59,940 bases of DNA from a virus, in IMG/VR virus record IMGVR_UViG_3300021962_000114, positions 1 to 59,940 of that record, one strand, 5' to 3'. Every line of letters starts with the position of its first letter. Position 1 is the first letter of the stretch. Shown piece by piece: positions 69 to 14,242 of this stretch. The notes under the pieces were generated by a model. The model was not told the DNA's origin. It ran no database searches and saw nothing but the letters and a program-made list of their open reading frames with translations. Both the position numbers and the translations under genes were made by a program.

Positions 69-944
69 TTACCAGTAACGACCTTTGCCTTTGTTGCCCA
101 GACTCTTGATTCTGTGGCTTCTGCAACTCCAATAGCCAGCCGTGGTTCTATCTTTCTTTTGGCTGCACTTGTGACGAGCAGCAAAGCTTTTACGACGGGC
201 TTTGCTACTAGCTCTACTTCTCATATTTGGATCGCCAAATGTTACTTTCTTGATGTTGCCACCCTTGCTTTTGACATACACAGCATACTTTTTTGGACCG
301 CCTGGAGTTCTGAATGGGCGATTCAAATGTACATTCTTGCCACGATGCTTGACTTCCATCATCAAGTCTTCTTCCTCCTCAATAGGAGCATCCAAATATA
401 CTTCTCTACCTTCGTAGATGGCTTTTTTACCCAAATCACTTTCAACCAGTTCTGCGTCTGGATCACACAATTCAATCTTGTTTTGGTGATACAATTCACG
501 AACTTCGTTGATCAATGCAAAATAAGCATCGCTGTAGGTTCTGAATACATTCTCTGTTAGCGACAACTTCTTGACCAAATGATATTCCAATTCCTTGCTG
601 ACTCTGACTTCACTAACCAACTTCATTTCACTCAAACCATCAGTATCATCTTCATTGACCGCACCATATTTTCTTGCAATGTCCATGGCTTGATCCAAAT
701 ATTGATTGGCCATGTCTAAATGATTTTGTCGCTTGGTGTCTTTGGTCATCTTGCTTTTCAATAGATGTGCTTTTTCCATCTTTCTCAAAGCAACATACTT
801 TTGGCGGTCCATCGCATTCGTGATTTGATCTTCGTACCCACCAGATTCTTTGACTGGCTCAAAACCCAGCTTTTCTAGTTCAGATGTGTTAGCAGCTTCA
901 ACTATACATTCTTTAATTAGATCTCTCAATTCGTTGGTGGTCAT
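69..944 (-). CDS. Conserved phage head-region protein with basic Cys-containing C-terminus
   Basis: 291 residues. The N-terminal two thirds are helical and acidic. From about residue 200 a region rich in Lys and Gly leads into a motif FGDPNMRSR followed by SFAARHKC...YWSC, which I remember from structural-gene neighbourhoods of T4-like aquatic phages, where it has no settled function. The paired Cys residues and surrounding His/Arg could bind metal or nucleic acid. The first residues (LRDLIKE, CIVE|A) contain L/I-x-E sites like those cut by T4-type prohead proteases. The gene follows the capsid gene, from which a strong terminator separates it, and has its own TATTTAT-type promoter 5 nt before the ATG. 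A head or vertex role is likely from position; the function is unknown. Confidence 0.8.
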   Translation of the reverse strand: MTTNELRDLIKECIVEAANTSELEKLGFEPVKESGGYEDQITNAMDRQKYVALRKMEKAHLLKSKMTKDTKRQNHLDMANQYLDQAMDIARKYGAVNEDDTDGLSEMKLVSEVRVSKELEYHLVKKLSLTENVFRTYSDAYFALINEVRELYHQNKIELCDPDAELVESDLGKKAIYEGREVYLDAPIEEEEDLMMEVKHRGKNVHLNRPFRTPGGPKKYAVYVKSKGGNIKKVTFGDPNMRSRASSKARRKSFAARHKCSQKKDRTTAGYWSCRSHRIKSLGNKGKGRYW

Positions 945-1012: not shown

Positions 1013-2755
1013 TTATACAGTGTCGAGGTCTGCGATCAGAACCTTACCATAGAACTCAGGACGCACTACCTTCTTAGCGTAGCGGGTCATCACACCACGG
1101 CGTGGAGTGAAGTTCACTGGATCATAGACCAATGGAGTTTGGATGAGTGGGATGTATGGAGCATACACAGCACCGGTTTCGAGGAAGTTGTTTCCACGGA
1201 AACCAACCAAAATCACGTTGTCGGTCATGTATGGGTTCTTGTATACTTGGAAGCGACTTGCGAAGCTACCAACACGGCTGACACCCATTGCGAACTTTGC
1301 TTGGTCACCGTCAGTGTTCACAACGTAACCTGGAATAGATTCCAAGATAGTTGCTACGTCTGGCGAACATACCAAGAAGTTAGCACCACCACGTAGAGTC
1401 AATTGGTGAATCTTGTTAGAGACCTTTTGGATCTTGTTACCAAGAGTTTGATACCAAGTGCTCTTGACATATGCAGTGCGGTTAGCAGATGCATTGGTCA
1501 AGCGGGTGAAGCTTGCAACGTCGGTGACTGGATCAACAGTCTTGGTGAACTCAGTACCGATTTGAGCAGACCATGCTTCGGTGGTGACACCGGTCACGGA
1601 CTCGTTCAACATGTCGAGGATTTCGAGGTCGATTTCCATCGATACGTACTCAGACAACAGTGCAGTCAATTCTGCTTCTGCGTCAATGCTGTGGTAAGCA
1701 TTCAAGTCTTGAGCCAATTCTGGGGTCCAGACAGCCTTCAACTTACGAGTCTTGGCAACGATTGGTTCGCTCTTGAGGTCGAGGTTGACTTCAGGAATAC
1801 CGATATCGGTGTCAATGTTTTGGTAAGGTTGATTGTTGCTTGTACCAGAACCTTCACCAGCAGTCTTGCCTGCTTCAAAGTCACCACGGAGGTTGTCCGA
1901 AGGTTGAACAGTGTAGTTCAGTACAAGATTGTTAGGATGTGCAGCCAAACCAGAGGTTGCAGTGAACAAGTTGATTTGATAGTATGGGTTTGCCAAGCTA
2001 CCAGTGTTAACTGCGGTTGCATAGGTGTTGAGGATCGTCAATGCAGCACCACCAGCTTGTGCTTGGAACGAACGAACTGCGTTCAAGTCAACATTCCATG
2101 CATTGCCAGTGTTTGCACTAGCACCTGCTTGAGTGTTGTCGTCCAAGTTGAAAGTGACCTTATAAACACCAGAAACGATGTTGGTCACAGGATCAACAGA
2201 AGAACTGAATTGATCAGCGTATTGCAAATCGTTCCAGCTTGCGCTGGTTACGTTTGCATAGTTTGCAGCAAATGCAGAGCTAGAAACGGTACGCTCAGAG
2301 TACGCATAGCGACCTTGACCGTATAGACCGTTTACTGCTGCGTTGGTAGAACCAAGCTTCTTTTGGGTACCACCGAACAAGCTTTCGCCTGGGCGATGTC
2401 CAAGATGGTTGGTAGAACCATACTTGAAGTCCAGATAGAAGATCAGACCGCTTGGGAGGTTCATTGGTTGAACCGAGACGAACTCCTTAGCAGCGATCTC
2501 AGCAAATACACGACGAACGAGTGGGAGAGCTACGCCTGCCCATTGTTCGCTGTTTGCGCTGGTACCAGTTGAACTTGCTTCAGTAAGCAATTGATTTGCT
2601 TGGTTTTCCAAGAGGATAGACATGTGAGCACGTTCGATGCCTTGGCAGCTTTCGAGCAGACCTGTCTTTTCCCACTTTTGTTGAAGACCACGGGTTTCAG
2701 CCATCAGCTTAGCCTGTGGGTTTTGATTGTTTGTCAATAGACTTTTTACATCCAT
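1013..2755 (-). CDS. 23: Major capsid protein (T4 gp23-like)
   Basis: Forms the hexameric lattice of the head shell. The 580-residue product contains the family block ALPLVRRVFAEIAAKEFVSVQPMN (positions about 73-96) with PSGLIFYLDFKYG after it, as in T4 gp23. An L-T-E|A site at residues 57-60 matches the site where T4 gp21 removes the gp23 N-terminal propeptide (LTE|A), so the mature protein should start near residue 60. I chose the ATG at 2755 rather than an upstream start at 2800 because AGGAA lies 7 nt before it and the extra 15 residues look non-conserved. The scaffold gene lies directly upstream (50 nt), and a strong terminator follows, giving the T4 order 21-22-23. Somewhat longer than T4 gp23 (521 aa). 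Confidence 0.96.
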   Translation of the reverse strand: MDVKSLLTNNQNPQAKLMAETRGLQQKWEKTGLLESCQGIERAHMSILLENQANQLLTEASSTGTSANSEQWAGVALPLVRRVFAEIAAKEFVSVQPMNLPSGLIFYLDFKYGSTNHLGHRPGESLFGGTQKKLGSTNAAVNGLYGQGRYAYSERTVSSSAFAANYANVTSASWNDLQYADQFSSSVDPVTNIVSGVYKVTFNLDDNTQAGASANTGNAWNVDLNAVRSFQAQAGGAALTILNTYATAVNTGSLANPYYQINLFTATSGLAAHPNNLVLNYTVQPSDNLRGDFEAGKTAGEGSGTSNNQPYQNIDTDIGIPEVNLDLKSEPIVAKTRKLKAVWTPELAQDLNAYHSIDAEAELTALLSEYVSMEIDLEILDMLNESVTGVTTEAWSAQIGTEFTKTVDPVTDVASFTRLTNASANRTAYVKSTWYQTLGNKIQKVSNKIHQLTLRGGANFLVCSPDVATILESIPGYVVNTDGDQAKFAMGVSRVGSFASRFQVYKNPYMTDNVILVGFRGNNFLETGAVYAPYIPLIQTPLVYDPVNFTPRRGVMTRYAKKVVRPEFYGKVLIADLDTV

Positions 2756-2805: not shown

Positions 2806-3924
2806 TTACTTCTTGATTCCTGCGAGTTTTTGGAATCGTGAAGTCATCACATCAGCTTGAGGTTCCACAATTGCGGAGTCAGGCTTTGTTGATGGTACTG
2901 GTTTGCTTGCCAAACCTTCGGTGATAGTCGAGACAGTTGCATTGGTAGAAGTCTTCTTCTTGGCAACCGATCCACCGGCATTAAATGATTCGGCCAAAAC
3001 GGTATATGCAAGCTTGATTTCACGCAATGTCTTGGTGAGATCAAACGTGCTGATGACCTTCAACTTTTGGTCTTCGGTCAAATTCTTGTTCTTGAACAGC
3101 TTGTTGGTGTACAACAGCTTTGCGTTCAAAATGTTGCTTTCTTCAAGAACAGTCTTGACATAGCGCAAACCTTCGTTTGCTTCTGCCAATTGCTTCTTGA
3201 GAGATTCGTTTTCTTCGCTCAAAGCAACAAGTGCTTCAGCGATTTCTTCTGGAGTGATGTCCATATCACCGCATTCTTCACAGTCTTCACCTTCGGATGG
3301 CGAAGGAACTTGACCTGGCACTGGAGCAACTGGTGCTGGTGCTGCGGCAACTGGAGCCACTGGTGCTGCTGGAGCAGCTACAGGAGCAGTAGGATCAACG
3401 GCAACTGGTGCTGCTGCGCCTTCTTCTTCAAGTTCAGCAAGCAATTCATCCAAGTTAATCTCGGCTTGCTCGTCAACCTTTTCCTTTTCGTCTTCTTCCT
3501 TCTCGCCCTTTTCTTCCTTCTCTTCGGCTACAACTGGTGCCGAACCGTCGGATTCAAGCTCTGCGAGAATTTCATCCAACTCTTCGCTGGTGATTTCAGT
3601 GCCCTCTTCCATGGTAGCATCAAATTCTTGCTTACCTGCTGGAGTGGTGTTTTTCTTAGCAGCAGTAGATGGTTGAACTGGATGTTGCTTAGAAGCTTCA
3701 TTACCATGTTCCTTACCAATGTTTGAAGATGCAAGCTTTTCTTCGATCTTGCCTTCTTCGTTACCTGCTTCGTCTTGTTGCTCTGCGTCTTCCTTGAGTT
3801 TGTCCGCAAACATTTCTTTCATGCTCTTGGCAAAGTTTTCCTCAAGGAAGGTTTTTGCGTTAGCAATTGCAGTATCACGTACTGCCTTTGCGTCAGCAAT
3901 GCTTTCTTTCAATAGATCGCTCAT
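2806..3924 (-). CDS. 22: Prohead core scaffolding protein (T4 gp22-like)
   Basis: Internal scaffold around which the shell assembles and which the prohead protease degrades. The 372 residues are very acidic, with a Pro/Ala/Val-rich low-complexity stretch at about 170-205 and two repeats of the form ELDEILAELE. The C-terminal third has the gp22-type segment (LLYTNKLFK, LTEDQKLKVI, TLREIKLAYTVLAES). An AGGAAAGG ribosome site lies about 10 nt before the ATG, unlike the leaderless-looking neighbours. Many L-x-E sites fit cleavage by the protease encoded further upstream. Its place directly before the capsid gene is the T4 order. The first residues (MSDLLKES) resemble the L-x-E-ending tags of other head proteins here. 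Confidence 0.9.
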   Translation of the reverse strand: MSDLLKESIADAKAVRDTAIANAKTFLEENFAKSMKEMFADKLKEDAEQQDEAGNEEGKIEEKLASSNIGKEHGNEASKQHPVQPSTAAKKNTTPAGKQEFDATMEEGTEITSEELDEILAELESDGSAPVVAEEKEEKGEKEEDEKEKVDEQAEINLDELLAELEEEGAAAPVAVDPTAPVAAPAAPVAPVAAAPAPVAPVPGQVPSPSEGEDCEECGDMDITPEEIAEALVALSEENESLKKQLAEANEGLRYVKTVLEESNILNAKLLYTNKLFKNKNLTEDQKLKVISTFDLTKTLREIKLAYTVLAESFNAGGSVAKKKTSTNATVSTITEGLASKPVPSTKPDSAIVEPQADVMTSRFQKLAGIKK

Positions 3925-4020
3925 ATTAAGTTATACCTTTCCTATTATTGTTGTGAAGTTATTGGAGAACTCCAAAGAAGATGTGTTTGCACTGACATCA
4001 AAGACGTTGATGTATTTGAT

Positions 4021-4030
4021 AATAAATATT
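4021..4030 (-). promoter_or_regulatory. Candidate late promoter for scaffold-capsid operon
   Basis: The minus strand reads AATATTTATT, close to the TATTTATA-like motif seen at other operon starts but about 96 nt before the scaffold ATG, which leaves a leader with a proper ribosome site. The same intergenic region also holds a TATAAATAG on the minus strand (4061-4069), which is the T4 late box in its usual orientation. Either could drive gp22-gp23. Confidence 0.35.
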
Positions 4031-4060
4031 GTATAAAATTCATAAATCACAATTTTTTTG

Positions 4061-4070
4061 CTATTTATAG
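4061..4070 (+). promoter_or_regulatory. TATTTATA promoter motif, 5 nt before plus-strand ATG
   Basis: CTATTTATAG on the plus strand precedes the ATG at 4075; counted from the end of TATTTATA the gap is 5 nt. No ribosome binding site fits between. Read on the other strand it is TATAAATAG, so it could also serve the divergent scaffold operon. Confidence 0.55.
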
Positions 4071-4074
4071 ATGT

Positions 4075-4671
4075 ATGCCAGCACAAAGCGAAAAACAAGC
4101 ACGATATTTCCGACTCGTCAGAGCGGTTCAAAAAGGAGATGTTCCTGCAAAGGACGTATCACCTGCACTGCGCAAAACAGCAAAAAGCATCAGTGCAAAA
4201 GCAGCAAAAGATTTCACCAAACTGAAAGAAATTCTTGCGCAATTGAGCGAAGAAGAATACAGCACCAGCAAAATGAAAGAAGTGGAGCCAGGCAAAACTT
4301 TTGATCAAGTGTTGGGAGAAAACGCTGGTCTACCATTCGACAAAAAAGAATTGTTGTCGTTTCAAGAAAAGCAAAATGGATTTGGTGGATTTGGTAAAGT
4401 AAACTTTGTACACAAAAAGAGCACCAACGAAATCAGTGCTGAACTCAACAGCAACGAAAGCAACAAAGTGTATGTGTTCAAAAAGTTGTCCAACAACAAA
4501 CACGAAGGTATGAGAAACTATGCTTGCTTTGTTGAGATGCGCAGCAGCAGCGATGAAAAACAACAACCAAAAATTGTATACACTCTCAGCACAATTTTTG
4601 ACGACAAAGACAGTGACAAAACCAAAGTATTGACAGACTTCATTGATAGAATCAACTCATATGGACTATAA
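4075..4671 (+). CDS. Small basic phage protein, DUF3008-like N-terminus
   Basis: 198 residues. The N-terminus (MPAQSEKQARYFRLVRAVQKGDV) resembles the short helix-turn found at the start of the small DUF3008-type phage proteins. The remainder has a Gly-rich FGGFGKVNF segment and a beta-rich C-terminal half with no recognisable enzyme motif. It is one of only three plus-strand genes in the window and is divergent from the scaffold gene. It overlaps the next gene by 11 nt, so the two are probably co-expressed. Function unknown. Confidence 0.75.
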   Translation: MPAQSEKQARYFRLVRAVQKGDVPAKDVSPALRKTAKSISAKAAKDFTKLKEILAQLSEEEYSTSKMKEVEPGKTFDQVLGENAGLPFDKKELLSFQEKQNGFGGFGKVNFVHKKSTNEISAELNSNESNKVYVFKKLSNNKHEGMRNYACFVEMRSSSDEKQQPKIVYTLSTIFDDKDSDKTKVLTDFIDRINSYGL

Positions 4672-5029
4672 AAACCTATACTCGCAAGTAAGACTCGGCA
4701 ACTTTTTGAAAAAATACACAGATGGTGTTGCCGAAGAAGAACCAAAATACAAGTTGATTGACATTGATCATCCAAACGGTTGGAACTTCAATGAAATTGA
4801 TACGTTGGGTGATATGGGCTTCAAGATCGACAACGATACCGACATGGTATGCGAAGTTGATGTGCCATCGATTGAACTAGAAAACCACAAGATTCCAGTC
4901 AAGGTATACAAAAACGAAGACGGGTATGTCCTTGAGACAACCCGCCGTTACGTATTTGAATCTTTTGATAAGATGCTTGAGTTTATTGACTCAATTCCAT
5001 CTGATTTGAAAACTCAGAGATTGCAATAA
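4661..5029 (+). CDS. Hypothetical acidic protein
   Basis: 122 residues starting at the ATG at 4661, inside the end of the preceding plus-strand gene. A TTG at 4643 in the same frame is possible but less likely. The protein is acidic, with the look of a small alpha/beta domain (IDIDHPNGWNFNEIDTLGDMGF, then two beta-like stretches). No family recognised. Its stop lies 1 nt from the stop of the convergent minus-strand gene, with no terminator hairpin visible between them. Confidence 0.72.
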   Translation: MDYKNLYSQVRLGNFLKKYTDGVAEEEPKYKLIDIDHPNGWNFNEIDTLGDMGFKIDNDTDMVCEVDVPSIELENHKIPVKVYKNEDGYVLETTRRYVFESFDKMLEFIDSIPSDLKTQRLQ

Positions 5030-5030
5030 C

Positions 5031-5504
5031 TTATTGACCTGCTGAGTGAGGTTCTTGAGGAAAGTTTGGCCCCAAGCTTACAGGTGCACCATCAGTTTGT
5101 GTTTGATAAGCTTTTGGTGCTTCTTGAATAGGATCAGCAATTTCAAAATAGCGTTCCAAACGAACACCACATTCTTCATACAACATCTCTAGTTGTTGTT
5201 CAATTGCTTTGATCTTGTGTGCTTCTTCGTATAGCTTGGAAGCACACTTTTTGATTTCCTTCATGTCACGCTCAACCATCTTGGCTTCCATCCATTCACG
5301 GCACTCTTTCAAAGCATAACGCTCTGCCAAGTTGACAGCTTCCATAATCTTACCAGCAGTCTCATATACAGCTTCAGCCTTGAGTGACTTGCGATATTGA
5401 TTGTAAGCTTTGATGGTTTCACGCAGCTTTACCTTCTCCTCTTTGGTCAAAGGAGCATATGCTGTTTCGGTTGAATTTTCTACGAGATGTTTTAGCTTGA
5501 TCAT
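5031..5504 (-). CDS. Alpha-helical head-region protein with L-x-E N-terminal tag
   Basis: 157 residues, nearly all charged helix up to about residue 125, then a Pro/Gln-rich tail. The first ten residues (MIKLKHLVEN) match the pattern of short tags ending in L-x-E in the neighbouring head genes, as in T4 internal head proteins and prohead core proteins. It lies between the prohead protease and scaffold genes. T4 has small prohead core proteins (gp67, gp68) near this place, just upstream of gp21, but I see no sequence match to those and offer only a positional analogy. Confidence 0.75.
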   Translation of the reverse strand: MIKLKHLVENSTETAYAPLTKEEKVKLRETIKAYNQYRKSLKAEAVYETAGKIMEAVNLAERYALKECREWMEAKMVERDMKEIKKCASKLYEEAHKIKAIEQQLEMLYEECGVRLERYFEIADPIQEAPKAYQTQTDGAPVSLGPNFPQEPHSAGQ

Positions 5505-5508
5505 ATGC

Positions 5509-5517
5509 TATAAATAG
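5509..5517 (-). promoter_or_regulatory. TATTTATA promoter motif, 4 nt before ATG
   Basis: The coding strand reads CTATTTATA, GCAT, then the ATG at 5504. The motif fills most of the 22-nt gap after the protease gene stop, and there is no ribosome binding site. Confidence 0.55.
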
Positions 5518-5526
5518 GGTTCAAAA

Positions 5527-6135
5527 TTACAATTCTGAAATAATATCACGAATGATTCTTTCAATATTGCTGTATGGGTTTACGATTTTGTTGGTGACAG
5601 GAACAATGCTTTCATCAAGCTTGCCTTGTGGATACATGAATGCACCTTGAGTCGAAGGATTGCTTACAAAGTCAAACGCAATCAAATCAAAATCATCTTG
5701 TACAACATCTGCGCCTTCACGCATGTCTTTCTTGACGCTACCCAGACCACGGCTACTGATACCCAATAGAATACCAGCCTTGAGAAGATCTTTTAGAATA
5801 TTACCACTTGGTGTAGGTAGAATTTCTACAGTACCCACCAAGTCATCGCCGTCCCAGCCCATATCAACGATATTGTGGCTGACATTTTTTAGGTTGACCA
5901 CCGAAGATTCTGGGTGATCCAATTCTCCCATGGCACGACGTTGCTTCACAAAGTTGTCCATATACTTTGTGGCTTCACGCTCAAGAATTTCTTTTGGATA
6001 TACACGTCCATTTTGATTCTTGGCGTCTGCACGTTGCAATGTGCCGGTTACAAGTACCTTGCCACTCGAAAGCGATTCGTTTAACGAACCTTTCTTAAAC
6101 TCAAATGGTAGTACATCAATCAGTATGTTTTTCAT
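5527..6135 (-). CDS. 21: Prohead core protease (T4 gp21-like)
   Basis: Serine protease that matures the prohead by cutting scaffold, capsid and internal proteins after L/I-x-E. At 202 residues it has the expected size. The catalytic His is in GELDHPE (His74) and the catalytic Ser is in GISSRG (Ser127 or Ser128). The N-terminal NGRVYPKEIL block and the C-terminal DFVSNPSTQGAFM block are also typical of the family. The start overlaps or abuts the preceding gene stop (3 nt gap), so it is translated as part of the gp20-to-gp21 operon. Its presence supports the L-x-E processing proposed for capsid and other head proteins in this window. Confidence 0.95.
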   Translation of the reverse strand: MKNILIDVLPFEFKKGSLNESLSSGKVLVTGTLQRADAKNQNGRVYPKEILEREATKYMDNFVKQRRAMGELDHPESSVVNLKNVSHNIVDMGWDGDDLVGTVEILPTPSGNILKDLLKAGILLGISSRGLGSVKKDMREGADVVQDDFDLIAFDFVSNPSTQGAFMYPQGKLDESIVPVTNKIVNPYSNIERIIRDIISEL

Positions 6136-6138
6136 AAA

Positions 6139-7290
6139 TTACGCTGTTGGTGCTGGTTGTGCCGCAGGTTTTTCTTCTGGCTTTGGAGCAGGTTCATCGC
6201 TGGTTGCGGTGTTGCTTGGAGCAGTCGAAGATTGTTTGCTTGGATCAACCAATGCCTTAGATTTTGCAATCTGATATTGGTCCTTTGGTTTTACATCAGC
6301 AGGACCAAGAATTCTAATTTTGTAACCAGGCTTCACAAAGAACTTCGCAGCCTTTTGTTTGTTTTCTTCACGACCCAAAATAATGATCACATAGCGATCA
6401 TAATAATAATCAATGTTTACACCAGTCACGTTGATGGTGTAATCTGTTTCGGGTTGTTTGAATCCCTTACTTGCACGAACCACAATCTTTTTGTTTAGAA
6501 TGTGATCTTGAATTTCTTTTTGAAGCTTCAGCTTCAGATCCTCGGTGCTGTTTTTTAGCTGAGTATCAAATTGAGTAAAATCTGGTTGTAGATTGTAGGT
6601 TTGAACTTGTACACTTGGTTCGGCTTTTGGTGCAGCTTGTGCCGCAGGTTGAGCAGCTTGAGGTGCTGGTTGTGGTGCAGCAGGTGCTGGTTGAGGTGCA
6701 GCATCAGCTTCGTTCATGCGAAAACGACGAAATCGAATACCATTCAAACCTTCAACGATTTTGGAAATTTTTTTGAACTTCGTATCAACTTCTGTGAAAG
6801 GAAGTTGTCCTTGCTTATATCCAGCCAAACCTGGATCAAGCTCTGGATCGCCATGTTGTGGCAAGCCATTAGCATCCAACCAGCTATCCACTGGCTCAAT
6901 GTTTTGTGCTGGAGTTACATATGCTGGTTCGCTATACATTTGATTTTCCAACGACAAGTCTTTGTCTCTTGGAACATTCTTTGCCAACTTATAACCAAGC
7001 TGGGTAGCAGCACGAACGTTGCCTGGACCACGCTTGCTAAACGCAAACGGAGTCATCACACCACCTACAGCACTGGTTGTGGTAGCTTCATTTTTGTTGA
7101 GAATTTGATCCTTGACTTTTTTTTCAATGTTTGCTCGCAACTCGGGGCTGATTTTGTCTGCGTGAGCTTGAAGCCAAGAATAGTATTGCTCTTTGTCAAT
7201 ACGTGCAAGTTCGCTATCACGGTACATTTTAGCGTACTGTTTAACGATGTCTCTGAATGGATCGCCTGATTCTTTAAGAAGCTTTTTCAT
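6139..7290 (-). CDS. Head-region protein with Ala/Pro/Gln linker, unknown function
   Basis: 383 residues from the ATG at 7290 (an in-frame TTG lies two codons upstream). It begins MKKLLKES, an L-x-E tag like those of other head proteins here. Residues 10-195 form a mixed helical region, followed by a low-complexity Ala/Pro/Gln linker (about 198-228), then a compact alpha/beta domain (about 230-345) containing KKIVVRASKG and VIIILGREENKQKAAKFF, and a Pro/Ala/Lys tail. The start overlaps the preceding gene by 17 nt. Position between portal and protease suggests a prohead or internal head component. No enzyme motif recognised. Confidence 0.8.
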   Translation of the reverse strand: MKKLLKESGDPFRDIVKQYAKMYRDSELARIDKEQYYSWLQAHADKISPELRANIEKKVKDQILNKNEATTTSAVGGVMTPFAFSKRGPGNVRAATQLGYKLAKNVPRDKDLSLENQMYSEPAYVTPAQNIEPVDSWLDANGLPQHGDPELDPGLAGYKQGQLPFTEVDTKFKKISKIVEGLNGIRFRRFRMNEADAAPQPAPAAPQPAPQAAQPAAQAAPKAEPSVQVQTYNLQPDFTQFDTQLKNSTEDLKLKLQKEIQDHILNKKIVVRASKGFKQPETDYTINVTGVNIDYYYDRYVIIILGREENKQKAAKFFVKPGYKIRILGPADVKPKDQYQIAKSKALVDPSKQSSTAPSNTATSDEPAPKPEEKPAAQPAPTA

Positions 7291-8146
7291 TGGCAAGGCT
7301 ATTCAATTCTTCAATCAACTCATATGCACTAAGCAAACTGGTCAATTGATTTTCTTTGACTACACCATTGATGGTTTTGTTTGCAAGCTGCGCAATGGTT
7401 TCATTGAGCTTGATTTTAATAACATCACTCTTTACCAAAATAGAACGTTCTTTCAATGCGGTAGAAACACGCTTGTATTCCTTGTTTACAAATTCAGTAA
7501 ACTTGGTTGTATTGGATACGTTGGTAATGAATGCTTTGAGCAATTGCTTTTGAGAAGGAAGTAGAGATGCGTACTTCTTGTTGAAGTTTTCGATCAAGAA
7601 CTTGTAAGCGAGAAGCTTGACCTCAGCGGGTTGAGAACTATATACGTCAAGTGTAGGCTCCTCGGATTTCTTTTCTCGTATCAAACTTTCGATTACACAC
7701 TCTCTGGCTTCTACCAGTTCTTCCACATCAAATTTTTGCTCGGTGCTGGTTTGATTCTCAAACAGCTTGTAGACACTGGCATACAGCTTGTAGTTTGGAA
7801 TTTTGTTTTTGAGAAATTCGTCAATGTTGAATTGTGCTTTGATCTCTTTGATCAAGTTGTACTTTTCAGCATTTAGATCACGCTCGTTTAGTTTGGAACG
7901 AGCTTGAAGAACAACATTGATAATACGATCTGCGGTCTCGGCATTCTTAGATGATTGACTAACAACAAAATTGTAGAGTTGAAACTCTTTACCCAGTGAC
8001 GTGCCTTCATTAAAATACTTGAACATCAAGTTCTTGGTGAAAGATTCATCACGCCCAGCCAAAATATCTGCGGTGATTTGACGAGTAAGCAGCTCAAATA
8101 ATACTCCGCTGTTCTTAAACTTCGAATGTTTAGCTTTCTTACGCAT
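7274..8146 (-). CDS. Conserved phage protein next to portal gene
   Basis: 290 residues, almost entirely helical and rich in Lys, Asn and Leu. The opening KHSKFKNSGVLFELLTRQITADIL is a block that I recall from T4-like aquatic phages at the same place beside gp20 and gp21, where it is annotated only as a conserved phage protein. No catalytic motif is visible. It lies in the operon portal - this gene - 6139 gene - protease, so a role in prohead initiation or core assembly is a reasonable guess. It has a TATTTATA motif 14 nt upstream. Confidence 0.82.
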   Translation of the reverse strand: MRKKAKHSKFKNSGVLFELLTRQITADILAGRDESFTKNLMFKYFNEGTSLGKEFQLYNFVVSQSSKNAETADRIINVVLQARSKLNERDLNAEKYNLIKEIKAQFNIDEFLKNKIPNYKLYASVYKLFENQTSTEQKFDVEELVEARECVIESLIREKKSEEPTLDVYSSQPAEVKLLAYKFLIENFNKKYASLLPSQKQLLKAFITNVSNTTKFTEFVNKEYKRVSTALKERSILVKSDVIKIKLNETIAQLANKTINGVVKENQLTSLLSAYELIEELNSLANEKAS

Positions 8147-8160
8147 ATAGTTCTATTAAA

Positions 8161-8169
8161 TATAAATAT
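8161..8169 (-). promoter_or_regulatory. TATTTATA promoter motif, 14 nt before ATG
   Basis: The coding strand reads ATATTTATA, then 14 nt (TTTAATAGAACTAT), then the ATG at 8146. The gap is longer than the 4-5 nt usual in this window and would leave a very short leader. Confidence 0.4.
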
Positions 8170-8201
8170 ATTGAATTTTACAAAATCATCATGAATTATG
8201 G

Positions 8202-10154
8202 TCACTCTGTGATATTTGTCTCATCCATATATGATTTTGTATCTCCTTCCTTCAAAGTGGTTTTATCATCCATGTAGGATTTGGCAGCATCCTCCTTCAA
8301 AATCTCTTTTGGAGTTTCAGTGGATTTCATCGATGCAGCCAATGATTTCAGGCTTTCCAATGATAGTGGAGAACGATTGCGATATTTGTGTGATACCGAC
8401 AAATCAGATTTGCTGTTCAGTTCCAGCGTTCCAAGTGGATCTTCTCCAAATGCATAATCACTGGCTTTTTTGCGACCAGTTTGATCACGTTCAGTAAGCT
8501 TTGGTGCTTCGCCACCAGAAGGTGCGGCACTGGTTTCGGCTTCTTTACCTGCTTCACCACCTGCCTCTGCTCCTGCTCCTGCTTCGCCCCCACCAGCTTC
8601 ACCTCCACCAGTGCCGCCCTCTCCTCCAGGCGAACCTTCTCCTTCACCTTCACCTTTCGCCTTGAGAAATTCCAATGCTGGGTCGTTACCTTCTTCTTCA
8701 ATCTGCTTGAAGCGGTAAGTACCCTTAGCATCATCAACAAGTTGCTTTTGTAGAATGATCATGTCTTGATCGCTAAGACCAAACACATTTTCATACATCC
8801 ACTTTTTGCTAAACATCTTTTGCTCACCCATGTCTTTGCAAACTTCAATCTTGCTCTTCCACACATCAATCTTTTCCTTTTCAAAGATTGTAGAAGGATT
8901 GGTAAGCTCCAAACTAAAATCAACCAACGACTCATCACGATATCCTTGGCTATACAAATGAACAACCGCAATTTTGTTGAGTTCACTCACAATAATGCGT
9001 TGCACACGTTGAATAGTACGTGCAAAACGAATATCTTCTGCTGCCAATGTGGCCTTACCAGAAAGTGATTCATCATAACCCAAGAATGCCTTTGGAATCT
9101 TGAGTGCTGCCATCATCTTGTTACGTAGATATTCGATATCGTCTGTACCAGTCCATTCAAGACCAGGCAAGTTATCAATGCTGGTTCCACTGTCTCCACC
9201 ACGAACTGGCAAGAAAAAGTCTTCAACCATGTTTTGTAGGTTGAAACGAAGATTGTAATCACCAGTGTTTTGATCCAAGTATGGAGTCTTTTTCATTTGT
9301 TGAATGATACGCTCCATGTGGTTATCAACTTCATTTGGAGGAATGTTACCAATATCAACCTTGAAAATACGCTTTTCTGGTGCTCGCATGATACGATGAA
9401 TCAACATTGCGTCTTCCATCAAACTCAATTGCTTCCACACACGGCGAGCACCTTCCAACATGCTCTTACCATAAGGCAAGAAATTGCTATCGCTCAACAA
9501 ACGAAAGTGTGCCATTTGATAATTTTCAAGATCCTCAATCTTGTTACCATAAGGCAAATTGACTTGAAACTTCACAAAGTTTCTGTTTTGTAGATGTGCA
9601 TTTTCTACACGGGTAACATAGTAGCTACTAAGAGGCTCCACCATGTATACACCATATTCTGGACTGATGTGCAGTCTCAAATAAAAATCACCATACTTGA
9701 CCAAACTACGAGTCCAACTCCAAAGATTGAATTCAATGTTGAGAATGTCATAAAACAAATTGTTCAAAACACTCTTGATGTCGTCGTTGCTGCTACGAAC
9801 CGTGATAACATCACCCATTTCATTTCTAGTAGTACATTCATCAGCATAAATGTCCAACGCAGAAGCCAAAATAGGGTCCATGTCCATTGTATCATAATCA
9901 CGAAACAGTTCCACACGACTGCTTTGATACGACAAATTGAAATCACGGGTATACTGATTATACGCCGTTGTACGAAGACGATTAAACCTATCACGCAACG
10001 AATTTCTATCGGTTGCGTAAAAAATTTCGTCGGTATCGATGACCTTGAGCTTTTTGCCACCAACGTTGCGAACAATAACGTCGTTGCTAAACAATCGCTT
10101 GAGTCTTGCGTATAGCGATCTGTTCTTTAGCTCTTGAAATGATTTTTCGTCCAT
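8202..10154 (-). CDS. 20: Portal vertex protein (T4 gp20-like)
   Basis: Forms the dodecameric ring through which DNA enters and leaves the head. The 650-residue protein has the typical portal blocks DPILASALDIYADECTTRNE (about 94-113), APEKRIFKVDIGN, a GLEWTGTDDIEYLRNKM stretch and LKIPKAFLGYDE. T4 gp20 is 524 residues; the extra length is a C-terminal extension from about residue 500 that is first extremely Gly/Glu/Ala-rich and then Ser/Lys-rich. Such an extension would project into the head and is unusual. Starts 24 nt after the terminase stop, with TAGGC as a weak ribosome site. Head operon order terminase - portal - protease - scaffold - capsid is as in T4, apart from inserted genes. Confidence 0.95.
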   Translation of the reverse strand: MDEKSFQELKNRSLYARLKRLFSNDVIVRNVGGKKLKVIDTDEIFYATDRNSLRDRFNRLRTTAYNQYTRDFNLSYQSSRVELFRDYDTMDMDPILASALDIYADECTTRNEMGDVITVRSSNDDIKSVLNNLFYDILNIEFNLWSWTRSLVKYGDFYLRLHISPEYGVYMVEPLSSYYVTRVENAHLQNRNFVKFQVNLPYGNKIEDLENYQMAHFRLLSDSNFLPYGKSMLEGARRVWKQLSLMEDAMLIHRIMRAPEKRIFKVDIGNIPPNEVDNHMERIIQQMKKTPYLDQNTGDYNLRFNLQNMVEDFFLPVRGGDSGTSIDNLPGLEWTGTDDIEYLRNKMMAALKIPKAFLGYDESLSGKATLAAEDIRFARTIQRVQRIIVSELNKIAVVHLYSQGYRDESLVDFSLELTNPSTIFEKEKIDVWKSKIEVCKDMGEQKMFSKKWMYENVFGLSDQDMIILQKQLVDDAKGTYRFKQIEEEGNDPALEFLKAKGEGEGEGSPGGEGGTGGGEAGGGEAGAGAEAGGEAGKEAETSAAPSGGEAPKLTERDQTGRKKASDYAFGEDPLGTLELNSKSDLSVSHKYRNRSPLSLESLKSLAASMKSTETPKEILKEDAAKSYMDDKTTLKEGDTKSYMDETNITE

Positions 10155-10178
10155 AAATTACTGCCTATCATATAAGTA

Positions 10179-11801
10179 TCATAAAAGCCATTTTAATGAT
10201 TCTTTTTTACCTGTTATTGGTCCAGCACCGGTGGTAACTGCACCTGTATCAAACTGCCAAGTCTCTTGAGGAGATTGTACAACTTTGGTTTGATTTGCTG
10301 GACCTGGTGTGTTGTTTATTACCTTTTTGATGCCTCCCAACATCATTTTTGTATAAACCATTTGCTCGGTACGAATCTTTAATGCAGTATCACGCACCCA
10401 CAAACCAATACCCAACGACATAACCAAATCGTCATTGTAACCTTTCATGGCTTCAGCCTTGGCTCCGTTCCAAATAAATACCATCAGTTCTTCGTACAAA
10501 CGAATACTGTGAATTATAATTTGACGCTCACGGAAAAAGCTTTCCATCTTATTGATAATCAACTGACGATTTACGTTGGTTGTGGTAAATCCTGGCGTAG
10601 CTTTCTTTTCAGCACTGTTGATTTTGTTGCTGTAGGTGCGCTCAATGTCTACCACCTTCAAATCCGATGAGCTATAATACAAGTTTGGATAATTTCTATC
10701 AATAACTTGCTGCAACGATGCCCAACCAATGTTGTTGTTTTCGATTACCAACAACGCATTGTTGTATTCTGTAGCAACTGTGACCAACAAATTACCATAG
10801 TCTTTGGTTGTAATTTGACCTTTGTATTCAGCCACTTGTTCCAGCGTTTCCACATCAAACACATGAAATGCACTATAGTCGGCACCATCTCCACGGGCAC
10901 AGTCAGCCACCACCATATAGTTTTTGCTATAGTCTGGTCGCTGCCAAATCCACAAATCTTGAGCAGCACCACGCTTTTCAATAGGATCTGTGATATGAGT
11001 CTTTTTGTAGAACTCCAATACATCCACTGCCACAACTTGATTACCAGACGTGCTAAAGTCGCAATCACATTCTTGTGCAGCACCCTTGATACCCGACAAT
11101 TCAGTTTGTTTGTCACGCCATGCTTGATCACGCTCGGGATGCAAATACCAAGGCAAACTGATAGTATTGAACTTATTCTCCTTGGCTTCTGCTGCTACCC
11201 ACGTTTTGTGAAAAAAGTTACCAACGCCATTTGGAGTTGATAGAACTGTGGCACGACCACCAGTTGATAGCGTGTATTGTGCCGACAACCAGATTTCTTC
11301 GATGTTGTCGATGAACGCAGCTTCGTCAATCACCAACAAAGACAAAGCGGCAGAACGACCAGCAGTACCAGCACTGGACACTGCTTTGATTTGAGATCCG
11401 TTTTTCAAACGCAAACTCAAACGATTGTCTTCAACACACTGAACCTTGAGCCATGCTGGAAGGTTGTCGTTGGCAAAGCGAACTTTGGTAACGATTTCTT
11501 TTGCAGTCTCTTGTGTAATACTGATACACAGAATGTTTTTGTCGTTGAAGAATGTCATCAACCACAAGCTATATGCCGACACCAGAGTAGAAATACCCAT
11601 CTGACGGCTCTTGAGGATGATGTTGAGATCAAACGTGACCAGATCCTTCAAGGCTTTTTCTTGAAATGGATACAGATCAAAGTTGCAAGTACCACGTATA
11701 GGATGTTGAATCTTCACATACTTCTTCATGAAGTATATGGGATCTTCAATACACTTCTTATACTCTTGCTTTATTAGATCTCTGTAGTTTTGCTGACTCA
11801 T
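10179..11801 (-). CDS. 17: Terminase large subunit (T4 gp17-like)
   Basis: ATP-driven DNA packaging motor and nuclease. From the ATG at 11801 the protein has 540 residues. ATPase domain: deviant Walker A LKSRQMGIST (about 63-72), where the usual P-loop Lys is replaced by Ile and a Lys sits before the loop, as in several terminase groups; Walker B LLVIDEAAF (about 155-163). Nuclease domain: VVADCARGDGADYS, LLVIENNN and GYNDDLVMSL supply the acidic residues. I chose 11801 over an upstream in-frame start at 11834 because GGAA lies 8-9 nt before it and the longer version reaches further into the preceding gene. It still overlaps that gene by 44 nt. Confidence 0.96.
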   Translation of the reverse strand: MSQQNYRDLIKQEYKKCIEDPIYFMKKYVKIQHPIRGTCNFDLYPFQEKALKDLVTFDLNIILKSRQMGISTLVSAYSLWLMTFFNDKNILCISITQETAKEIVTKVRFANDNLPAWLKVQCVEDNRLSLRLKNGSQIKAVSSAGTAGRSAALSLLVIDEAAFIDNIEEIWLSAQYTLSTGGRATVLSTPNGVGNFFHKTWVAAEAKENKFNTISLPWYLHPERDQAWRDKQTELSGIKGAAQECDCDFSTSGNQVVAVDVLEFYKKTHITDPIEKRGAAQDLWIWQRPDYSKNYMVVADCARGDGADYSAFHVFDVETLEQVAEYKGQITTKDYGNLLVTVATEYNNALLVIENNNIGWASLQQVIDRNYPNLYYSSSDLKVVDIERTYSNKINSAEKKATPGFTTTNVNRQLIINKMESFFRERQIIIHSIRLYEELMVFIWNGAKAEAMKGYNDDLVMSLGIGLWVRDTALKIRTEQMVYTKMMLGGIKKVINNTPGPANQTKVVQSPQETWQFDTGAVTTGAGPITGKKESLKWLL

Positions 11802-12405
11802 ACTTTTGTTCCAACTCTTTGATGAAACCGTCAATCTCAGCCAAACGTGCGTTGATGATTTCCAAATCTTTGGTTACATCCTCACGAATTTTGCCCACAT
11901 CTGCGCCTGTTTCCCACTTTTCAATGCTACCGTCTTCGTTGATAAACTCAAGAGGCTTGCCTTCGTGGTCTTGACACCATTTCAGTGTTTCATCAAACTT
12001 CTTTTTGTATTCCTTCAAAACACTGCTTTCGTTGCGCAAATCACGGGCTTGATCAAAATATTCCCAAGTACCGTCTAGTTTCATATCCGTTTCATTCTTG
12101 GTGAAACAGTCATAGCACAATTGTGTCTTTGGCCAAACACGATCATCCAAATAGTTGCCCCAGCGCACGTCCATGTTGCATTGCTTGCAACGCTGTTCAA
12201 TAACAAACGTTGCCTTTTTTGGAACTCTGCGCTTGGCACCATTCTTCCAGATCCACTTCTTACCTTGACTATCCTCCCACTGTTCTCCTTCTTTGCGTTT
12301 AGAGTTGTTGAGGTCGTCGGTATAACCAACTTGAACGAATGGACGTTCACCATTTACATAATCCCGAATGATGTCGAGATTGCTTTTGCCTTGTGCTTTT
12401 TTCAT
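11758..12405 (-). CDS. Zinc-ribbon protein upstream of terminase, possible small-terminase analogue
   Basis: 215 residues from the ATG at 12405 (an in-frame TTG lies two codons upstream). A central four-Cys zinc ribbon, CKQC (about 73-76) and CYDC (about 97-100), is followed by a charged coiled coil of about 100 residues (KEYKKKFDETL, DLEIINARLAEIDGFIKELEQKY). The N-terminal part has a GYTDDLNNSKRKEGEQW block that I recall from T4-like aquatic phages. It sits directly before and overlaps the large terminase gene, which is where T4 gp16 lies, and T4 gp16 is also rich in coiled coil. The zinc ribbon has no counterpart in T4 gp16 that I know of, so the small-terminase role is a positional inference. 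Confidence 0.8.
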   Translation of the reverse strand: MKKAQGKSNLDIIRDYVNGERPFVQVGYTDDLNNSKRKEGEQWEDSQGKKWIWKNGAKRRVPKKATFVIEQRCKQCNMDVRWGNYLDDRVWPKTQLCYDCFTKNETDMKLDGTWEYFDQARDLRNESSVLKEYKKKFDETLKWCQDHEGKPLEFINEDGSIEKWETGADVGKIREDVTKDLEIINARLAEIDGFIKELEQKYESAKLQRSNKARV

Positions 12406-12423
12406 AACCAATATGTATTTGTT

Positions 12424-13476
12424 TTATTTCCCAAAACTACTTTGTAGTCCTTTTACTATGAAACTTCCAGTAATTTTGAATGGATTACCATAGATACTAG
12501 GATCACGAATCACTATACCTTCGTGTTTCTCTAGATCTCCAATTTCACTGGTTGCGTTCTTTAGAACTTCATCGCCTAGTTTGATTGTGGCAATGTATAC
12601 AATCGTATCGTTGATTACTTTACGAATGTCTTGACCAGCAAAATCTTTTGAAATGTTTTTGCTCTTTTGTGCTTTCAAGAACTCTTCTCGGGTGATCAGT
12701 GGTGTTTCAATCTTGACATTTTTCAACCAATCTTTCAAAGATGCTGTAACTGCTTCGCCATTTGGATACAACGTAATCTTTTCTCCAAGTGGGCGAGTAA
12801 GATTAGGATTGCTCTTGAATGCAGTACCTACACTACCCAACACCTTGAACCCTTGCTTTTGAGCCACTACATTAAGCTTGTCGATGTAGCTTTGCATTGC
12901 TGCTTTGTCATAAGGAATTTCAGTAGCTACACGACTTTTTACTTGACCATCTTTACCAAAGGTTTTTGGCTTGATCTCCTTCAAACCGTGGATTGCCAAA
13001 AAGTTTCCGATATCTCCATAACCAACAACATTGGTTTGTCCTTCAACATATTCAATGTTGAGCAAAATATTTGGATTGTCTAGCAGCCCCAACTTTTTTA
13101 GTTCGGCTTGTGTGCTGGGAATAGCTTCGTCGAAAATATTGATAACCTTAGCACCAATTTTTACAAATCCATGCTCAACTCCAGTGGTTGGATCTGTAGG
13201 CCAGCGGTTTGCCAAATCTTCGGGTCTCATGCCTTGAACGTCGAACGGCTTGGCACTGCCACGATCCATAACAAATTTACCGTTTACCAAACGAATGCTG
13301 GCGTTGACACCATCGATCTTGACACTACCAGCACCCTTTTTGAGAGATTCAATTGATTTGGCAAACACATCAACAAGTTGCTTGCCAGTTTTTGTAAAAT
13401 CAAACGGATGCGCCATGTGTCCGCCAGCACCACCCTCACGCAGCATTTCAGTAAGAAGATTCTGTAATTTGATCAT
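12424..13476 (-). CDS. Predicted nucleotidyltransferase/ligase-fold protein with head-targeting-like N-terminus
   Basis: 350 residues from the ATG at 13476. The motifs of the covalent nucleotidyltransferase superfamily (DNA ligase, RNA ligase, capping enzyme) can be read in order: KIDGVNASIR with the candidate AMP-accepting Lys53, NILLNIEYVEG (motif III-like), EGIVIRD (motif IV) and KITGSFIVKGL (motif V-like). It lacks an obvious OB-fold or zinc finger, so it may be a minimal ligase or a degenerate relative; a DUF6267-type phage family with a similar GGHMAHPFD opening comes to mind. The first ten residues, MIKLQNLLTE, end in L-T-E, the same tripeptide as the capsid cleavage site. The ATG follows the stop of the upstream gene by 1 nt. 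Confidence 0.75.
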   Translation of the reverse strand: MIKLQNLLTEMLREGGAGGHMAHPFDFTKTGKQLVDVFAKSIESLKKGAGSVKIDGVNASIRLVNGKFVMDRGSAKPFDVQGMRPEDLANRWPTDPTTGVEHGFVKIGAKVINIFDEAIPSTQAELKKLGLLDNPNILLNIEYVEGQTNVVGYGDIGNFLAIHGLKEIKPKTFGKDGQVKSRVATEIPYDKAAMQSYIDKLNVVAQKQGFKVLGSVGTAFKSNPNLTRPLGEKITLYPNGEAVTASLKDWLKNVKIETPLITREEFLKAQKSKNISKDFAGQDIRKVINDTIVYIATIKLGDEVLKNATSEIGDLEKHEGIVIRDPSIYGNPFKITGSFIVKGLQSSFGK

Positions 13477-13477
13477 A

Positions 13478-14242
13478 TTAGTCAATAAATGTTTTTTCAA
13501 ATGTGGATACACCCTTCAAATATGAACGCTGTGTTTCATCAAGTGCATCATCAGTAAATTGCCAGTTCCAAAATAGTTGATCTGGAGTTTGAAATCCAAA
13601 AAAGTCAAGAACACTCTTTTGCGTCTGAACTACATGCTTACCATTCCAGTTTTGACCAACCGCAATAAATCCAGCATCAATGTCTTTGACAATGTTGGAC
13701 TCACCCATTGTCGAATGTCTGTTTTCAATCCAAGTCAAACGTTCGATGAGTTTTTGATAATATCCATTAGCTTGGCCCCATCTCACACTCGCAAAAAACA
13801 GCACACAGTCACTTTCAAATAACTCTTTGCTGATCTTCCAAAGTTCGTCGCCTTTTTCATTTACACTTGCCCAGCAACGATGATAACCACTTGGGTTTTG
13901 TTCTTTGTTTTTCAACAATGCTTTTGCCGCACCACAATGATTGCCACCAAATTCTTTGTTGCTGCTCACATTACCTTCACATGGTACAATGTGCAATTTG
14001 GTAGTATCAATCAATGTTACCTTTTCCTTACCAAGTAATTCTTGAATTTTGATAGCAAGTTGACTGCTTTTTGGAACGTCTTCTTTGTGTTGCGACCAAC
14101 GATTGCTTGTGGTCAACAACAACACTTTGTTTTTGCCACGCAGATAGTCGATAGTTTTCTTGTATTTCTTCGCATACAAGTCCATATCTTGCTCACTGAT
14201 GGGTAACTTAGATTCTAACAATAAGTCGGTCAGACTGATCAT
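13478..14242 (-). CDS. Flavodoxin-fold NAD(P)H-dependent oxidoreductase-like protein
   Basis: 254 residues resembling the NADPH-dependent FMN reductase / iron-sulfur flavoprotein group. After a ~38-residue lead-in, KVLLLTTSNRW starts a Rossmann-like beta1-loop, followed by a helix, KVTLIDTTKL (beta2), CEGNVSSNKEFGGNHC (a loop with Cys where related proteins have Cys-rich segments), DCVLFFASVRWGQANGYYQKLIERL (beta3 and the conserved helix) and DAGFIAVGQNWNGKH (beta4). These match the order in flavodoxin-like reductases, though FMN contacts cannot be confirmed by eye. The first ten residues, MISLTDLLLE, look like a capsid-targeting tag. Redox flavoproteins are uncommon in the head module of phages. 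Its promoter motif lies 5 nt before the ATG. Confidence 0.72.
   Translation of the reverse strand: MISLTDLLLESKLPISEQDMDLYAKKYKKTIDYLRGKNKVLLLTTSNRWSQHKEDVPKSSQLAIKIQELLGKEKVTLIDTTKLHIVPCEGNVSSNKEFGGNHCGAAKALLKNKEQNPSGYHRCWASVNEKGDELWKISKELFESDCVLFFASVRWGQANGYYQKLIERLTWIENRHSTMGESNIVKDIDAGFIAVGQNWNGKHVVQTQKSVLDFFGFQTPDQLFWNWQFTDDALDETQRSYLKGVSTFEKTFID

Follow-up and report, generated by a model that had tools for sequence, protein, structure and literature searches.

Introduction

Phage T4 is the textbook case of injected proteins that are loaded by a tag, and its cargo bearing a capsid-targeting sequence (CTS) is ejected. The T4 internal proteins IPI, IPII and IPIII are small and basic, and carry a 10-residue leader with hydrophobic residues at 4, 7 and 8 and a glutamate at 10 (MKTYQEFIAE/A; here and below, the slash marks a cut site). 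Amber-suppressor replacements in IPIII have shown that residues 4 and 7 govern targeting and residues 8 and 10 processing; with Asp at residue 10, processing is blocked while targeting stays intact (PMC9026906). Alt, the packaged and injected ADP-ribosyltransferase of T4, is reported to be cut after 7 N-terminal residues (PMC9026906), and in phage SPN3US a prohead protease removes the propeptides of the ejection proteins before ejection (PMC7411985).

The IMG/VR record of 59.9 kb studied here is that of a T4-like phage, with a gp23-type capsid protein and an S77 prohead protease; by window we mean the whole stretch of DNA analysed, 59,940 nucleotides. In the capsid protein, Microcystis phage Mel-JY01 and Flavobacterium phage immuto come closest to it among annotated cultured phages, at 49-50% identity. 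An S77-family protease and a gp23-type capsid are common to this phage and to the system of the T4 internal proteins, and the leader of the reductase described below, MISLTDLLLE followed by S or A, resembles theirs. The candidate cargo differs, being enzyme-like (an FMN reductase and a protein of predicted RNA-ligase fold) and predicted from the genes to be packaged. SPN3US is a more distant phage, and its motif is A-x-E.

Results

The features of interest are listed in Table 1. In the window, portal- and terminase-type genes separate the capsid and protease genes from those of the reductase and the ligase-like protein. An earlier note on this DNA had invoked an L-T-E/A site in the capsid protein together with the protease, and both are indeed found. 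The capsid site reads QLL[TD]E/A in the capsid protein of 9 contigs out of 9, and so matches the reductase tag, LL[LTNSI]E/A, in form.

Table 1. Positions of head-module features and predicted tags in the window.
Feature	Position	Strand	Basis or remark
Head-region protein, basic C-terminus, leader MTTNELRDLIKECIVEA	69..944	minus	orthologues tagged differently
Major capsid protein (MCP) gp23, 580-aa reading, ATG near 2755	1013..2752	minus	Pfam Gp23 E 1e-74
Predicted capsid maturation site LLTE/A	2579..2590	minus	MCP residues 56-59 (580-aa reading)
Scaffold protein, gp22-like by position, predicted docking surface	2806..3924	minus	gene order before MCP
Helical head-module protein, tag MIKLKHLVE/N, start 5504	5031..5504	minus	start conserved
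S77 prohead protease, predicted cutter	5527..6135	minus	Pfam PF03420 E 6e-30 and own genome search
Head-module protein, start MKKLLKES	6139..7290	minus	tag reading unsupported
RNA-ligase-like nucleotidyltransferase, 350 aa, tagged	12424..13476	minus	motifs and structural matches
Ligase tag MIKLQNLLTE/MLRE/GG, two possible cut sites (E10, E14)	13435..13476	minus	conservation
FMN-reductase-like (flavodoxin-fold) protein, 254 aa, tagged	13478..14242	minus	weak Pfam FMN_red; fold comparison
Reductase tag MISLTDLLLE/S (A in most homologues)	14213..14242	minus	column conservation

A family search with the scaffold protein gave no match. Its C-terminus, SRFQKLAGIKK (window 2809-2841), is almost invariant across the clade. 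In the cultured phage immuto, gp083 (L356, 21676-22140) carries RRMQKLAGIITE/S close to its N-terminus; this segment is possibly another docking module, ending in I-T-E. Beyond the reductase gene, on the strand opposite to the head genes (14322-16286, plus strand), lies a 654-aa protein with S/T/P repeats (SVTPSVTATPS) and a C-terminal segment that looks lectin-like by eye.

With the Pfam family FMN_red (PF03358), the window reductase scores 14.1 bits for a cut-off of 24, and a homologue (L297) passes the cut-off with 25.7. Structure comparison with Foldseek and VIA brings it close to the SsuE, ArsH and YhdA-type reductases, and over residues 36-252 it has the flavodoxin-like fold of FMN reductases (Foldseek E 2.6e-5; VIA Z about 12), in a model whose mean pLDDT is only 58. 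It has in common with these enzymes the fold and a TSNRW...KSxQLA stretch after the first strand, but differs from them in which Cys, W and H residues are conserved, and in carrying a phage-specific tag at the N-terminus. In the model the fold begins near residue 36 and is preceded by an N-terminal helix of low confidence; for both enzymes, residues 1-20 are modelled with low confidence, with a short helix at 4-8 or 4-13.

The reductase has 168 close relatives in IMG/VR, and 527 with a broader profile. Among the 63 distinct sequences with E at residue 10, M1, L4, L8 and E10 are found in 63/63 and L7 in 61/63 (otherwise I), while seven different letters occur at residue 5 and five at residue 9. 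A few reductases have one extra residue (LLLQEA), and L-x-E is still kept.

In 84,980 bacterial and archaeal species genomes, two reductase homologues were found (52-58% identity), on Gracilibacteria and Kerfeldbacteria contigs, and a search of the phylum added three more, for a total of five in Patescibacteria. The tag is absent from the start of all five. Homologues lacking the tag in related phages had been named in the earlier note as evidence against packaging. The 63 distinct reductases keep the tag. In one phage contig, G397, the reductase lies outside the head module, among sugar-type genes, is untagged and begins at the fold (MIAKFIDHLKDKKKVLFLTTSNRW). Since G397 has S77 and gp23, yet an untagged reductase, packaging is not inherent to the enzyme. 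In another phage, G003, the reductase gene is absent altogether. The reductase leader is a separable add-on, absent from the non-cargo homologues (five bacterial, one phage).

For the ligase-like protein, we take the ATG at 13476 as the start; the longest open reading frame begins 36 nt earlier, at a GTG within the upstream gene. The best matches of its model (pLDDT 74) are T4 RNA ligase 1 and other RNA ligases, with a VIA Z of up to 7.3, under the usual comfort level of 8. Foldseek gave at best E 5.7e-3, and Pfam RNA_ligase E 0.099, below cut-off. The motifs KxDG and EGxV are common to this protein, T4 RNA ligase 1 and nick-sealing RNA ligases, and the fold predicted for it would be theirs too; identity to T4 RNA ligase 1 is about 14% in the structural alignment, and the activity is predicted. 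T4 Rnl1 is not known to be capsid cargo. In the alignment, KIDG (motif I) and EGIV (motif IV) are fixed save one conservative change, and columns K53, D55, G56, E319, G320 and V322 are invariant.

Close relatives of the ligase number 155 in IMG/VR. In 53 distinct sequences, L4 is kept in 52, L8 in 53 and E10 in 52, and position 7 is I or L; positions 5 and 9 vary, with six letters at residue 9. E14-G15-G16 is invariant in the same set, so the ligase may be cut at LRE/G as well as, or instead of, LTE/M; one ligase (L024) has K at tag position 10 and retains E14/G. The L024 protein (3225-4574) also has a C-terminal extension of ~100 residues that, by eye, looks like pretoxin-type segments. A loss of the tag in G008 and L073, whose ligases start MIKISKLLVS..., is apparent only: the G008 gene is interrupted, and a tagged first piece lies upstream (MIRLNNILSEVIQEGGAGGH). 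L048, with the same start, probably has the same cause. In the G008 gene (G008:C1:67188-69078), the interruption falls right after GGAGGH, and the insert, likely a mobile intron or homing endonuclease, holds a CxxC-containing reading frame.

A sister T4-like lineage has leaders on both enzymes, MSRFLKLLEE/A on the reductase and MNFQRFFILNE/GGAGGHM on the ligase, the latter being fused to an NMN-adenylyltransferase-like domain. When both enzymes were sought in cultured phages, nothing matched save the C-terminal nucleotidyltransferase domain of this sister-lineage ligase. The ligase had no match in the two bacterial genomes bearing reductase homologues, in a search run without a positive control.

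We then turn to the frequency of such starts. All five N-termini with L-x-E starts cited in the earlier note are present in the sequence. In its loose form (L-x-E within the first ~10 residues), the motif is found in 7 of the 45 window genes (69, 2806, 5031, 6139, 12424, 13478 and 48947), where internal Met residues predict 3.0 (p=0.03), and it also fits orthologous terminases, which start MSQxNLREII. Given these terminase matches and the weak excess in the window, the loose motif proves little by itself, and it was dropped as unspecific. The strict tag, whose T4-like spacing puts hydrophobic residues at 4 and 7 and the E at 9 or 10, is found in 3 of the 45 genes, 13478, 12424 and 5031 only, against 0.38 expected (p=0.006).

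Aligning N-termini genome-wide, as had been proposed as a check, does uncover more carriers. Over nine contigs (the window and eight related ones; 1023 genes, called blind to the tag), 61 genes have the strict tag, for about 8 expected (8.6 from internal Met residues, 7.9+/-3.0 from shuffled sequences). Other letters in the E slot are rarer: D 10, K 9, Q 10, S 15, T 19 and N 28, the last count coming in part from the tagged ligases themselves (MIKLNNILNE). Because the strict expression was composed after the T4 and window tags had been seen, a fair test has to be made on the other families. With the three families of the window left out, there are 139 families that have several members. In 8 of them, half or more of the members carry the tag, where any other letter gives 0-2 such families; two of these eight (MSLINIYNE, MSEVTKFTE) are probable chance matches. 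In some of the tagged families, D takes the place of E at the cut site. In T4, IPII and IPIII (MKTYQEFIAEA), Alt (MELITELFDED, a short leader on an enzyme of other chemistry than those of the window) and gp24 (MAKINELLRES) fit the strict expression; IPI, gp67, gp68, gp21, gp22 and gp23 do not, nor does any T7 or lambda protein. The enrichment for E in T4 itself is modest (E 8 vs D 5).

The helical protein at 5031 keeps the start M(I)KL[KR]HL[VL]EN in nearly all orthologues; on this pattern, its tag is probably a capsid-targeting propeptide, and the protein possibly a core protein. The gene at 6139, which starts with an ATG at 7290, two codons past a TTG, was rejected as a carrier: its orthologues begin MKKPLKES, MKNHLKKS or otherwise, and LKESGDPFRDIV is internal in another protein. 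The scaffold, which starts at 3924 with MSDLLKE, was set aside too, as any gp22-like protease substrate is expected to have LKE. Thus, among the five carriers initially claimed, the reductase and the ligase hold and 5031 is probable, while 6139 fails for want of conservation and the scaffold is uninformative. A further carrier that had gone unmentioned is 69-944, starting MTTNELRDLIKECIVEA. Its orthologues have MIKLNDLxE-type tags on the same body, unlike the window leader, as if leaders had been exchanged.

Besides this family, the following are convincing carriers: a 424-aa protein (MVKLIDILVEN), GP88 (MKFIDLLTEA; Pfam E 1.6e-34), of which an untagged homologue exists, a Mom-family protein present in one contig only (MIKLKELILEG; E 1e-24), two small families with a YRG motif (MKRYSLLYES, MKLIDILTEV) and a possible metallopeptidase (MIKFKDILNEA). 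The ADP-ribosyltransferase and metallopeptidase readings were made by eye, and profile searches on these proteins found nothing. Searched by sequence against solved structures, neither of the two enzymes nor the YRG protein gave a match, so the ADP-ribosyltransferase reading is one of motif only. The PADLOC search for defence families gave no useful matches.

Discussion

The reading of the reductase and ligase tags as T4-type capsid-targeting propeptides is well supported by the sequence comparisons: they are conserved at the T4 CTS positions, absent from cellular reductases, found on unrelated families and specific for E. Columns 4, 7, 8 and 10, conserved in both enzymes, are the four positions mapped in T4 IPIII. 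From this analysis we infer docking, cleavage, packaging and injection of both enzymes, and we consider it likely that both are tagged, docked on the scaffold, cut by S77, kept in the head and brought into the cell with the genome. The CTS would be a short amphipathic helix, of which hydrophobic residues 4 and 7 would dock the enzyme on the prohead scaffold; the S77 protease would cut at L8-x-E10 during maturation, and the freed enzymes would stay inside the head along with the DNA, and reach the host cell when the genome does. What they might do there is a weakly held guess: the ligase could seal host-made RNA breaks (of anticodon-nuclease type) or nicks in the entering genome, and the FMN reductase could shift redox or flavin chemistry before phage transcription starts. 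Such a mechanism would be of a known kind, the cargo, a reductase and a ligase-like enzyme, being new. The Mom-family DNA-modification protein would be an odd cargo, which is a point against. A literature search for virion proteomics of immuto or Mel-JY01 found none.

An unlikely alternative accepts the CTS and its loading into the prohead, and places the role of the proteins there, in head assembly, in processing of the scaffold or in packaging (for instance by sealing nicks in the packaged DNA), without injection or a function in the new host. Both genes do belong to the head module and lie immediately upstream of the terminase and portal genes, and IPIII contributes to head morphogenesis in T4 (PMC9026906). 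However, the reductase cannot be essential for heads, since G003 has none, its homologues also occur outside head modules, and T4 ejects its CTS cargo. We find it more improbable still that the N-terminal helix serves some other kind of docking, for example to a replication, transcription or membrane complex of the phage, with an incidental L-x-E form. Many docking roles are known for short amphipathic N-terminal helices, and the tagged Mom-family proteins act on DNA, but the specificity of the E slot (E 61, D 10, K 9), the free residue between L and E, and the identity in form with the capsid cleavage site all argue otherwise.

Chance, finally, could produce such a likeness without function, L/K/E-rich helix-forming starts being common; in its favour, the loose motif has a p of only 0.03 in the window and fits terminases. 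This explanation is strongly disfavoured, and we give it very little credit: held-out families are tagged, the letter E is specific, conservation is position-specific over 116 distinct sequences, and the bacterial homologues are tagless.

If the tags do work as capsid-targeting propeptides, enzymes are delivered at infection by an uncultured clade that is widespread, the reductase being encoded on hundreds of IMG/VR contigs. Cargo would then be readable from N-termini alone, an easy way of screening metagenomic T4-like phages for injected effectors and counter-defence proteins, the large family here being one of uncultured freshwater T4-like phages. A broader proposal, which we put forward tentatively and with more doubt than belief, is that a single, interchangeable leader serves the clade as its cargo code, and that an enzyme kit is injected at time zero against damage by host defences. 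The kit would comprise the RNA-ligase-like enzyme, the flavin reductase and the motif-only ADP-ribosyltransferase-like proteins, and would repair or pre-empt damage before phage expression.

In immuto (L356), which is cultured on Flavobacterium sp. LMO8, three proteins bear tags: gp093 (MISIYNILKE/V), gp082 (MRLLELLRE/A) and gp079 (MKKLIRIVE/A). Shared starts of other types were seen in the same phage, among gp076, gp077, gp092, gp080, gp094 and gp095. Three of these proteins, among them one with a PduO-type adenosyltransferase annotation, start F[DN]L[KR][KS]FL[VT]ENKLTxN, and the others have common MKKSxLxxIIKE-like starts; by their sequence, these look like further leader classes. Of the 1023 genes, 171 have a sense-strand TA[TC]TTAT upstream, 11-13 nt from the start codon, and this motif precedes window genes 69, 4075, 5031, 13478 and 14322. 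Within 40 nt, it is found for 27 of 48 tagged genes vs 245 of 975 others. So near the start codon, it would be either a promoter for leaderless transcripts or a translation signal.
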